In this document: piece by piece, positions 60,150 to 64,000 of the stretch
How the letters are laid out: the number at the start of each line of letters is the position of its first letter
Numbering within the stretch: the first letter of the stretch is position 1
Source: an uncultured Pedobacter sp.
Lineage (GTDB): Bacteria > Bacteroidota > Bacteroidia > Sphingobacteriales > Sphingobacteriaceae
Length of the DNA: 64,000 nt
NCBI RefSeq assembly: GCF_946480185.1
Contig: NZ_CAMLIG010000015.1
Span: forward strand, 30,517-94,516
Direction of reading: 5' to 3'
The notes under the pieces: model-generated
Databases searched by the model: none
Told to the model about the DNA's origin: nothing
The model's input: only the letters and a program-made list of their open reading frames with translations
Program-made: the position numbers and the translations under genes

Positions 60150-60276
60150 GCCTTGTTCTGCTCAAAAACAAACTATAATATTTTACAAGCAGCTAAATAG
60201 TGCTATAACTGATTTATATTAGCGATATAAATTTTATTGTTAATTAATATTTTCAAAAGAAAACAAAGCGTTAGGG

Positions 60277-60334
60277 ATTGCAGTGAAAATCCTTTTTTTG
60301 CTTTTTCAGCGAAAAAAGATTGTAACGGAAAGCC
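60277..60334. repeat. Pair of related 17-bp motifs, REP-like
   Basis: GATTGCAGTGAAAATCC (60277-60293) and GATTGTAACGGAAAGCC (60318-60334) are imperfect direct copies. A short palindrome CTTTTTC/GAAAAAG lies between them. The layout resembles known intergenic repeats of this lineage; the exact family is not known to me. Confidence 0.45.
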
Positions 60335-60452
60335 CGCCCGAACGCCCAAATAATCATTTTAATAATTAGGTAAAGAAAAGCGAGCGGTTAACTATCAAGG
60401 CTGTTGAGCAATTGAAACGCAATTGAAACTAGGCTTCAGGAATTATAAAAAG

Positions 60453-61657: not shown

Positions 61658-62704
61658 ATGGAATTTGAAGCAAAGTTAATTCGGCATCGTAACAAAAACA
61701 GGATTGCTGTTTGGTTTGAAAACAAGCCTGAGCTGATTACGAGATTTAGGAGACTGGATGATGCCATGTGGAGTTCGACTTTGGGCGTTTGGCATTTGCC
61801 GGATACACAAACAAACCGCGAAAAGTTTAATTTAGAAGCCGACAAAGGTAAAGGTGTGCCTTATTTAGCCAAAATTGAGCAGATTGAGCTTTTTAAGAAA
61901 TACCTAAACACGAAACGATATAGCCCGAATACGGTAAAAACCTATTCGGAAGCTTTGCAGACTTTTTTATTTTTTTACAACGATAAAGCTATAAAAGACA
62001 TTAACAACCAAGATGTTGTAGCATTTTATAATGATTATATTTTAGAGAAAAAGCTTTCAATCTCGTTCCAGAATCAGGTGGTTAATGCTCTTAAATTATA
62101 CTTTAAAACGATAAAAGAAACAGCAATAAACGTTGATAAAATTTACAGGCCAAAAAGAGAAAAGCTTTTGCCCAATGTTTTAAGCAAGGAAGAGGTTAAG
62201 AAAATTTTAAATGTACATAGCAATATTAAACATAAAGCGATGCTATGTTTGATTTATAGCTGTGGATTGAGGCGGAGCGAGTTGCTGAACTTAAAACCAA
62301 AAGATATTGACTCGAAAAGAAATTTGGTAATTATTAGGCAGGCCAAAGGAAGGAAAGATAGGATTGCGCCACTCTCGCCCGCTATTTTAGATATCCTTAG
62401 GGATTATTACAAAGCATATAAACCGGGAGAATGGTTATTTGAAGGAAAATACCCCAATACGGCTTATGACGAAAGGAGTTTAGGGCTGGTATTAAAACAG
62501 GCATTAGCAAAATCAAAAATAAATAAGCCAGTAACGCTTCATTGGCTGAGGCACAGCTATGCCACACATTTATTAGAGAGCGGGACGGATTTACGTTACA
62601 TTCAGGAAATTTTAGGCCACAAAAGCAGCAGAACGACAGAAATTTATACTCATGTAAGTACAAAAAGTTTACAAAAAGTAAAAAGTCCTTTTGATGATTT
62701 ATAG
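61658..62704 (+). CDS. Tyrosine recombinase (integrase) adjoining a cassette array; not of the IntI type
   Basis: This is a complete site-specific recombinase of 348 residues. The ATG chosen (MEFEAKLIRH) is better than the TTG 33 bp upstream. An extra N-terminal domain (~1-70, with RLDDAMWSSTLGVWHLPDT) is followed by a SAM-like core-binding domain (~78-165) and the catalytic domain with Arg205 (CGLRRSE), Lys230, His295, Arg298 (HWLRHS), His321 and nucleophile Tyr330. The spacing Lys-to-His is 65 residues. It is 72 in XerD and 106 in class 1 IntI, so the insertion that IntI uses to hold folded attC DNA is absent. The end, KVKSPFDDL, resembles the IntI end RSPLDAL. The gene stops 98 bp before the first cassette junction and runs in the same direction as the cassettes. 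Confidence 0.9.
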   Translation: MEFEAKLIRHRNKNRIAVWFENKPELITRFRRLDDAMWSSTLGVWHLPDTQTNREKFNLEADKGKGVPYLAKIEQIELFKKYLNTKRYSPNTVKTYSEALQTFLFFYNDKAIKDINNQDVVAFYNDYILEKKLSISFQNQVVNALKLYFKTIKETAINVDKIYRPKREKLLPNVLSKEEVKKILNVHSNIKHKAMLCLIYSCGLRRSELLNLKPKDIDSKRNLVIIRQAKGRKDRIAPLSPAILDILRDYYKAYKPGEWLFEGKYPNTAYDERSLGLVLKQALAKSKINKPVTLHWLRHSYATHLLESGTDLRYIQEILGHKSSRTTEIYTHVSTKSLQKVKSPFDDL

Positions 62705-62811
62705 AATTTAAATATATTTATAAAAATATGTTCACACACGGACTAGACATATACAACATTATTTGGTTGTATATAAGAAGTTTTATAGGACATATATGTA
62801 AGTTACCGCTA
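62705..62811 (+). other. attI-like region with the first recombination junction
   Basis: The junction is G-TTACCGCTA, with G at 62802 and the cassette beginning at 62803. Upstream are two direct copies of GACATATA (62746-62753 and 62789-62796) and an inverted repeat ATACAAC/GTTGTAT (62751-62757, 62766-62772). These may be recombinase-binding sites, since class 1 attI also has direct repeats. They could equally be chance in AT-rich DNA. A clear promoter for the cassettes was not found. Confidence 0.6.
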
Positions 62812-63435
62812 ATTGTGCCGACATGAAAGACTATACAAAAAAGGATTATATTCTTCACTTTCTAAGTGAAAATAATTCAAAATCTATTGGCGAATATTGT
62901 AAAAATATAAATGCTGACTATAATGAAATATGTTCACTTGTTGACGACTTAATACATCTTGAACTTGTTGATATTATTCCAATATCCAGTAAACACGGAA
63001 ATAGACATGACAAATTATTAACAATAAATCATCGTGGTCTTTTCTTTTTAAAAAATGGAGGTTTCACATCTACTAAAAAAGCAGAAACAAGGAAACACAG
63101 ACTTAGTATTGCTAAAGAAATCATGACGTACACCAGTACTTTTGCTATTATCATCATATCATATTTTAATTATACTGCCACAGACAAAGCAAATGACAAT
63201 AAAGAGGTTACAAAAAAATTAAATTTCACTATCGATAGTTTGAAAAAGTCAAACGACATATTAAATACTAAACTTCATTACTACGAACTGAATAAAAAAA
63301 ACAACTAGCGGTAACCACAGGTTTAAAAAATTGCGGGCGAAGTGCTTTCACTTCCTTCATCACCATTTATTTAATTTTGTGCGGTGCGACATCGGTTCTG
63401 CAAGCAATTTCGCAATTTCTCAAACCTGCCAACCG
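62803..63435 (+). mobile_element. Cassette 1 of an integron-like array (633 bp)
   Basis: The unit starts TTACCGCTA and ends at the G before the next junction. The first 10 bases plus the preceding G (GTTACCGCTA) are the exact reverse complement of TAGCGGTAAC (63306-63315) at its right end. The match extends to 14 of 15 positions (ACAA-x-TAGCGGTAAC). It carries one ORF on the same strand. This is the structure expected of a gene cassette that can form a circle by joining its ends. Confidence 0.82.
62823..63308 (+). CDS. Cassette 1 cargo: unknown membrane protein with winged-helix-like N-terminus
   Basis: The ATG is 21 bp after the recombination point, and the stop TAG is the first three bases of the attC outer arm, as is common in integron cassettes. 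The protein (161 residues) has a helical, winged-helix-like N-terminal part (~1-80, KDYTKKDYILHFLSENNSKS, LVDDLIHLELVDIIPIS), one transmembrane helix (~107-122, STFAIIIISYFNYTA) and a C-terminal coiled coil (~128-158). I do not recognise the family. Its AT-rich codon use, different from neighbours, fits an acquired gene. Confidence 0.8.
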   Translation: MKDYTKKDYILHFLSENNSKSIGEYCKNINADYNEICSLVDDLIHLELVDIIPISSKHGNRHDKLLTINHRGLFFLKNGGFTSTKKAETRKHRLSIAKEIMTYTSTFAIIIISYFNYTATDKANDNKEVTKKLNFTIDSLKKSNDILNTKLHYYELNKKNN

Positions 63436-63441
63436 TTATGG
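63306..63441 (+). repeat. attC-like site 1
   Basis: The site is 130 bp from the start of the R'' arm to the junction G (63435). R'' is TAGCGGTAAC; then CA; then L'' CAGGTTTAAAAAATTGCG (63318-63335); then an inner hairpin GAAGTG-CTTT-CACTTC; then L' CGCAATTTCTCAAACCTG (63411-63428); then CCAACC; then the core GTTATGG. L'' and L' pair with a few mismatches and leave an asymmetric bulge next to the outer arms, like the unpaired central spacer of integron attC sites. About 104 of the 120 positions after the R'' arm are identical to site 2. Confidence 0.82.
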
Positions 63442-63950
63442 GTAAATGTTCCCCGAACGAAATGCATCAGTAAATGAAAATTTCGACACTGCAAACGGAC
63501 AAATTTGAACTGCCGAAAAGTATTTAAGAAATAGAACAGTAAAACCGAACTAAAACAACCTTTAAACCGACCAGAACGAAAAGAAAATTAGAATTTACAG
63601 CATTTAAAAAAAAACAAGTTTCAGACCGACCTAAACGCTCAACTGAACTGCTCAATTGAACGACATTTTCAATTCTGGTTTCAGCCGACCAAAACGCTGA
63701 CCGACCGAATTTTTTTCGGTTTTTAAGAACAAATTGAAAAGACAAAATTGAACTGTTTCTAAATGCTGACCGAACTGAAACAAAAGCCAATGCTTGAATA
63801 TAATATGGAAAAAACACATCTACCCATAACCACAGGTTTGCAAAATTGCGGGCGAAGTGCTCTCACTTCCTTCACTTCTTTTTATTTAGTTTTGTGGGGT
63901 GCGACAGAGGTTCTGCAAGTAATCTCGCAATTTCGCAAACCTGCCAAACG
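63436..63950 (+). mobile_element. Cassette 2 of an integron-like array (515 bp), little coding potential
   Basis: The unit starts TTATGGGTA, and its right-end arm TACCCATAAC (63821-63830) is an exact complement of GTTATGGGTA. The match extends to 14 of 15 positions (ACAT-x-TACCCATAAC). The interior (63490-63800) is rich in loose ACCGAC/GAACTG motifs. The only same-strand ORF of note is 20 codons, and a 97-codon ORF lies on the minus strand; neither is convincing. Confidence 0.8.
63446..63508 (+). CDS. Possible 20-residue leader ORF of cassette 2
   Basis: The ATG lies 10 bp after the junction. The first 13 codons (MFPERNASVNENF) also occur in cassette 3; of the three differences in the shared 50 bp, the only one inside the codons is synonymous (AAT/AAC). 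That hints at translation, but the ORF is so short that chance is a fair alternative. Confidence 0.25.
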   Translation: MFPERNASVNENFDTANGQI

Positions 63951-63956
63951 TTATAG
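63821..63956 (+). repeat. attC-like site 2
   Basis: The site has the same 130-bp layout as site 1: R'' TACCCATAAC, CA, L'' CAGGTTTGCAAAATTGCG (63833-63850), inner hairpin GAAGTG-CTCT-CACTTC, L' CGCAATTTCGCAAACCTG (63926-63943), CCAAAC, core GTTATAG (G at 63950). L'' and L' differ from perfect complements at only one of 18 positions, so this copy folds even better than site 1. Confidence 0.82.
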
Positions 63957-64000
63957 GCAAATGTTCCCCGAACGAAACGCATCAGTAAATGAAAATTTCG
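63951..64000 (+). mobile_element. Cassette 3, first 50 bp (cut by window edge)
   Basis: It begins TTATAGGCAA at the G-TTA junction. It matches the first 50 bp of cassette 2 at all but three positions. The array therefore continues to the right of the window. Confidence 0.75.

Follow-up and report, generated by a model that had tools for sequence, protein, structure and literature searches.

The right-hand end of a 64,000-nucleotide (nt) stretch of an uncultured Pedobacter sp. (contig NZ_CAMLIG010000015.1; this whole stretch is referred to below as the window) contains the start of a gene cassette array next to an Xer-type tyrosine recombinase that lacks the insertion specific for integron integrases (IntI), and this array is likely integron-like in its action. 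From the sequence comparisons described here, we give this reading a probability of about 0.88. The recombinase would cut at G-TT in the adjacent attI-like site and in the hairpin-forming attC sites, and would insert, excise, and reorder one-gene cassettes in the manner of an integron. Integrons as such are already described for Bacteroidota in the cited parts of earlier work (PMC9024848, PMC8618304, PMC9668308). As the recombinase is not IntI, the window represents a different recombinase class rather than a Bacteroidota outlier of the known integron. It is a widespread variant, for which we infer recombination and which would work like an integron, but which does not qualify as an IntI integron.

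Cassettes and Boundaries in the Window

The original prediction, made from the letters of the window, described three G-TT boundaries, and all three are real, lying at positions 62802 (GTTACCGCTA), 63435 (GTTATGGGTA), and 63950 (GTTATAGGCA). It also held that the outer arm of each site matches the start of its own cassette; this agrees with our comparison, where 14 out of 15 positions match in both window cassettes, and the only mispairing in both outer arms is an A·C mismatch at position 11. Two cassettes, each ending in a hairpin site, are present as described, but the sites span 125 nt from AAC to GTT rather than the 130 given initially. The integron-like reading itself stands with respect to the cassettes, the G-TT boundaries, and the own-start pairing, but it overlooked the adjoining recombinase (61658–62704), which is not IntI.

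The tetranucleotide GTTR occurs at 606 positions of the window, and a perfect 10-nt inverted partner 300–1000 nt downstream exists for two of them, namely, both cassette starts. By a simple estimate, ~0.4 such partners are expected by chance, and far fewer for a 14/15 match. The two repeat copies are 88% identical across 192 nt. A covariance model trained on 19 sites from other loci, with none from the window or from loci L001–L003, identifies exactly these two sites in the 64 kb at an expectation value (E) of at most 0.01, both on the plus strand (E 4e-11 and 5e-9), the next-best match having E 0.08. Following the own-start rule, cassette 3, which continues beyond the window, would terminate in an arm close to ACATCTGCCTATAAC.

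The protein of cassette 1 (161 amino acids, aa) has no match in Pfam, NCBIfam, or PADLOC, and a protein database returned it alone, with no relative. Cassette 2 has no plus-strand gene of at least 60 aa wholly inside, and a 97-aa frame is present on its minus strand. No synteny of the window with loci L001, L002, and L023 was detected by blastn beyond the recombinase region. The features of the locus are given in Table 1. Upstream of it, the window also contains a Flavo-1 RNA (RF01705) at 60263–60343 on the plus strand (63.4 bits; gathering score, 42).

Table 1. Features of the recombinase locus and the adjoining cassette array (window coordinates).
Feature	Coordinates	Strand	Remarks
Tyrosine recombinase	61658..62704	+	348 aa; IntI-specific insertion absent; ~75 additional N-terminal residues
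attI-like leader	62705..62801	+	97 nt, from recombinase to first boundary; repeated arms, possible promoter position
First boundary (attI GTT) and own-start arm of cassette 1	62802..62816	+	
Cassette 1	62802..63434	+	633 nt, from G to the base preceding the next G
Cassette 1 gene	62823..63308	+	161 aa
attC 1 outer arm	63301..63315	+	Pairs with 62802–62816, 14/15
attC 1	63313..63437	+	AAC, inner stem, GTT; 125 nt
Cassette 2	63435..63949	+	515 nt
attC 2 outer arm	63816..63830	+	Pairs with 63435–63449, 14/15
attC 2	63828..63952	+	AAC, inner stem, GTT; 125 nt
Cassette 3, start only	63950..64000	+	Cut by the window end

The Recombinase Lacks the IntI-Specific Insertion

The window recombinase scores 217.6 bits against the NCBIfam model NF040815, just below its cut-off of 220, and 207.1 bits, in two stretches, against the integron-integrase model TIGR02249 (cut-off 265). 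Against the XerC and XerD models it scores 186.5 and 181.7 bits (cut-offs 329.6 and 335, respectively), and it is not an orthologue of either.

The additional domain located in IntI between patches II and III is absent from the window recombinase. The alignment with the IntI4 structure breaks at query residues 251–276, where the query has 24 residues and IntI4 has 66. Similarly, the spacing from GLRxxE to HxxRH is 96–97 residues in all 35 window-related rows (including that of L024, an array-less locus that falls in the Xer group), 138 residues in 11 IntI from the same phylum (a twelfth, read on the wrong strand, was left out), and 99–103 residues in ten XerC/D. In the predicted structure (mean predicted local distance difference test score, 81.3; predicted template modelling score, 0.52) no helix is present at the place of the IntI insertion, and helices 241–254 and 272–285 are consecutive. 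The best fold matches of this structure are archaeal Xer and IntI4 (Foldseek: 4a8e, E 1.7e-16; 2a3v, E 4.5e-15), with low template modelling scores of 0.39–0.44. The part shared with Xer is preceded by ~75 N-terminal residues.

Own-Start Pairing in Related Loci

A scan of genome contigs yielded 25 loci with a related recombinase, nearly all of them from Bacteroidota. A finder for AAC, an inner stem, and GTT detected sites downstream of the recombinase, and running on its strand, in 13 out of 24 loci scanned, the window included; upstream controls gave few, at most one each, with the exception of L024 (two matches of a different kind). In these discovery loci, at least six out of nine letters match the cassette's own start in 41 out of 62 candidate cassettes, some of which are false matches of the crude finder, and the next start in eight out of 62; the own-start sum was reached by none of 10000 permutations.

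The same was seen with a covariance model, R1, in 19 further loci picked from the recombinase match list, L086 and L087 having been picked for sites previously seen nearby. Here six or seven out of seven letters match the own start in 67 out of 82 cassettes and the next start in six (0/10000 permutations); L078 was omitted as a copy of L022, five out of 91 sites were dropped as lacking AAC or GTT, and four had no comparable start. The recombinase lies on the array strand in 17 out of 19 loci. The divergent layout, with the recombinase opposite to the array strand as in classical integrons, is seen in L086, L087, L113, and L147.

The cassettes chosen by the own-start rule (n = 127) have a median length of 840 nt; three of them have no frame, and in 116 out of the remaining 124 the longest frame has the direction of the array. 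Genes of at least 80 aa number 121, and 104 of these were run against Pfam and PADLOC; among the matches listed, the families are varied and nearly all single, e.g., Fic, HNH, TIR, methyltransferase, reverse transcriptase, efflux, and many domains of unknown function. Bodies are shared by four pairs of cassettes. One cassette is common to two genomes, occupying an inner place in L080 and the first place in L069, and the similarity begins at the G of GTT, with none before it.

Structure of the attI and attC Sites

As in integrons, an attI adjoins the recombinase gene, lying ~70–130 nt behind its stop, and the attC sites combine an AAC…GTT core, inverted repeats, and complementarity to the cassette's own start. 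The strict integron core RYYYAAC/GTTRRRY is not followed by the attC sites. The base before GTT is A in 13 out of 13 attI loci and C in 55 out of 55 attC sites, position +10 being A in all 68; GTT is followed by A or G in all 55 attC sites, and later positions are free, with C at position 5 in 30 out of 55.

The inner stem consists of 20 positions, its left arm being positions 4–23 after AAC, and most inner arms, equal in length, pair in one register without a bulge. This register was set by hand and the structure was specified for the models, as MAFFT had misplaced the right arms (RNAalifold: no pairs). Conserved extrahelical bases are absent, and the conserved feature is an A·C mismatch: the 187 non-pairing positions of 55 sites comprise 93 with A in the left arm and C in the right arm, and six with the reverse. 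In 78 further sites the respective numbers are 118 and 16 out of 254, and A·C occurs at position 17 in 65 sites. The A·C mismatches of the top strand are G·T wobbles on the bottom strand, and the pattern fits folding of the bottom strand, without proving it. The recombinase may act on a folded single strand of attC, with the conserved mismatches possibly marking strand and orientation in place of the classical extrahelical bases, from which strand choice in classical attC chiefly derives according to the cited part of PMC2727003.

Repeated arms are a feature of attI as well: the attI arm at −18 has its best direct repeat at −61 in 13 out of 30 loci, and, out of 12 positions, inverted repeats match at 9.4 (7.9 in shuffled sequences) and direct repeats at 9.3 (7.7). 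The motif TAnnTTTG, which we take to be a promoter motif, is found in the leader of 15 out of 32 loci (shuffles: mean 2.0, maximum 6 out of 32; other strand: 1); the window leader has no exact TAnnTTTG. A promoter in the attI leader may read the first cassettes.

Sites and Enzymes Across Genomes

We surveyed 296 sampled Bacteroidota genomes for sites (R1, E ≤ 1e-6), the recombinase (E ≤ 1e-40), and true IntI (above the curated cut-off); ten candidates per genome were scored with strict filters, and hence sites are undercounted. Sites were found in 143 genomes, the recombinase in 96, and true IntI in 84 (including G054 and G041). Sites are present in 85 out of 96 genomes with the recombinase and in 58 out of 200 without it (odds ratio 18.9, p 3e-23), whereas for true IntI the odds ratio is 0.6 (p 0.054). 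By enzyme content, sites occur in 62 out of 71 genomes with the recombinase only, 10 out of 59 with IntI only, 23 out of 25 with both, and 48 out of 141 with neither. The latter class implies that either the cut-offs miss recombinases or sites outlive them. Among six IntI genomes inspected closely, one has a site. No classical attC was found beside true IntI in four stretches, which says little, as the crude finder used a strict consensus. The layout, which the original prediction inferred to be novel for Sphingobacteriaceae, is common across the phylum and not organism-specific. Single units scattered over the genome had been named as a sign that would speak against cassettes; sites outside the main array do occur in the 12 genomes searched, but cassette structure is still the rule in the loci examined.

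Outside Bacteroidota, sites were found in 10 out of 149 genomes of Spirochaetota. In two Spirochaetota loci the first cassette's own-start copy, found pattern-free, lies 126 and 462 nt from a related recombinase; true IntI is also present in one of five site-bearing genomes inspected. Genomes G313 (L147) and G440 (L148) of this phylum hold the same sites, which in G313 span ~72 kb of one contig, with a divergent recombinase. An assembly labelled Candidatus Alkanophagales archaeon (G307; L020, L120–L122) has a related recombinase, an end resembling attI, and three weak sites (~90 nt), with E from 1.5e-4 to 0.0075 under open filters and none at 1e-4 under strict ones; sites at E ≤ 1e-4 occur in 13 out of 148 genomes of its phylum.

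In a 56-row tree, IntI and the array recombinases are jointly separated from XerC/D (support 100/100), and L024, which has no array, is on the Xer side. IntI is placed among the array recombinases, beside L020 (95/84), from the archaeal assembly, and L084 (87/90); the IntI branch is long (1.9), and the inner supports are mixed and moderate. If this nested placement holds, arrays whose recombinase lacks the IntI-specific insertion (I2) preceded IntI, and the array recombinases may thus represent cassette systems as they were before the IntI domain.

Resistance Cassettes on Plasmids

The plasmid set comprised 199 records with a relative; nine regions were read, drawn from this set and from follow-up searches. 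A Flagellimonas plasmid carries erm(F) in its first cassette; an Arenibacter plasmid agrees with it at 977/977 bases up to and including the attI GTT, beyond which its first cassette is a different one. A match to erm(F) is found in 14 other plasmid records. It begins at the G of GTT (position 975 or 976) in 13 and is truncated at the start of the record in the remaining one; its end is the GTT following attC in eight and an earlier point in six. Own-start arms are retained on Sphingobacterium and Myroides plasmids: OXA-347, 7/7; erm(F), 6/7; and tet(X2), 7/7 (Sphingobacterium). On an Acinetobacter indicus plasmid, tet(X3) starts at GTT behind a shortened recombinase of the family, whose alignment begins at query residue 103. 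The tet(X3) attC is cut, and the similarity of this region with an E. brevis plasmid, where the site is complete, begins at the same GTT. Overall, erm(F), tet(X2/X3), OXA-347, and their neighbours lie in such arrays in plasmid records L110, L113, L115, L116, L117, and L118. In L113, the second cassette has an attC-like end that matches a Persicobacter plasmid (NZ_AP025294.1, H47) in ten places.

Neighbourhoods with xerD or tpnF next to tet(X) are known from the literature, and the tpnF beside tet(X3) is the shortened member of the window recombinase family. The cited parts of PMC7473080 and PMC7722449 record the adjacency of xerD to tet(X) and leave the role of XerD open; they differ from our reading in that they ascribe the spread to ISCR2 transposition and do not describe attI or attC sites.

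Weighing the Explanations

A number of observations weigh against an integron-like array of this kind. In the survey, 58 out of 143 site-bearing genomes have no recombinase at the cut-off used. Own-start pairing has exceptions: 15 out of 82 cassettes of the 19 further loci do not match their own start, plasmid arrays match it at five or more of seven letters in only nine out of 12 cassettes, two out of nine Sphingobacterium and Myroides cassettes match at one and two letters out of seven, the E. brevis tet(X) cassette at four out of seven, and on a Chryseobacterium plasmid with insertion sequences it is matched in one out of six. Two duplicate cassettes of L021 (10950–11650 and 15966–16664) are 94% alike and diverge from 23 nt into attC, and thus inner attC parts seem to be exchanged separately from the gene. 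Both window sites are without the mismatch at position 17, having A·C at positions 4, 12, and 14. As for action on a single strand, the strand bias in predicted stability is mild, the bottom strand being favoured in 38 out of 55 sites of the first set (top, 16) and in 53 out of 78 further sites (top, 24), and top-strand T·G wobbles (59 vs. 7) point in the opposite way at other positions.

Among other explanations, a classical integron served in trans by a true IntI encoded elsewhere, with the neighbouring recombinase having another task, is highly improbable. Such an enzyme is around in 84 of the surveyed genomes, but the sites track the neighbouring recombinase and not IntI (odds ratios 18.9 and 0.6), they are present in only 10 out of 59 IntI-only genomes and in one of the six inspected closely, and the array starts beside the window-type recombinase. 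A role of the host's XerC and XerD in moving the cassettes, comparable to what they do for phages and elements exploiting them, is very unlikely: XerD above the cut-off lies at another place in seven out of eight hosts checked, and both the array and attI adjoin the dedicated recombinase, although XerC and XerD are close relatives of it and integration of CTXphi by XerCD uses a folded strand (cited part of PMC4792948).

The arrays might also be dead relics, built formerly and now immobile. Shortening of the recombinase in some loci, such as the one beside tet(X3), stops within some of the matches, and the many sites without a recombinase would agree with this, but we regard it as highly improbable, since the window recombinase is open and complete, and the two plasmids that are identical over 977 bases and then diverge in their first cassettes point to recent change. 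Dispersed palindromic repeats, similar to repetitive extragenic palindromes or miniature inverted-repeat transposable elements and merely situated between genes, would account for the single sites outside arrays; given the own-start pairing, one gene per unit in the direction of the array, and base-exact boundaries in unrelated contexts, this explanation is almost certainly wrong. We prefer a cassette array served by the adjoining recombinase.

Relation to Known Systems

The window-type arrays share with IntI integrons (class 1, Vibrio, and other chromosomal ones) a recombinase, an adjacent attI, one-gene cassettes, attC sites of the form AAC…GTT, and own-start pairing. They differ in that the recombinase is devoid of the insertion of ~41 residues, attC has equal inner arms with A·C mismatches instead of conserved extrahelical bases, and the recombinase is mostly on the array strand, being divergent in L086, L087, and one Spirochaetota genome. 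Among solved structures, archaeal XerA/Xer (PDB 4a8e, 5hxy) are nearest in sequence and match best in fold, the NF040815 score being the 217.6 bits given above, but the window recombinase has, in addition, an attI, an array, and an N-terminal extension; to our knowledge, archaeal XerA/Xer are single recombinases without cassette arrays. Integration of CTXphi by XerCD likewise involves an Xer-type enzyme without I2 and a folded strand without extrahelical bases (cited part of PMC4792948), but it relies on host enzymes and has no array, whereas the window type combines a dedicated enzyme with cassettes. In the Discussion of that paper, Escudero et al. single out CTXphi as the sole further reaction that bears some resemblance.

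Implications

Among open-licence PubMed Central papers, preprints excluded, we found none on cassette arrays with a recombinase without I2, and none on attC sites surrounding tet(X) or erm(F). IntegronFinder demands an IntI-specific profile, according to the cited part of PMC9668308; finders with this requirement would not call the window recombinase IntI, and thus a large cassette pool may go uncounted.

A wider proposal, which we consider tentative and put at somewhat less than even odds, is that an Xer-type recombinase without I2 and mismatch-marked attC sites define a second class of integrons, present in much of Bacteroidota, in Spirochaetota, and perhaps in Archaea, which would be a surviving pre-I2 stage and would have brought together the resistance clusters of Bacteroidota with erm(F), tet(X), and OXA-347. 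The cassettes would explain where erm(F), tet(X2), and OXA-347 sit on plasmids of Bacteroidota, which would be useful for surveillance, and, if the array works, a recombinase without I2 together with its cassettes would be the missing intermediate.
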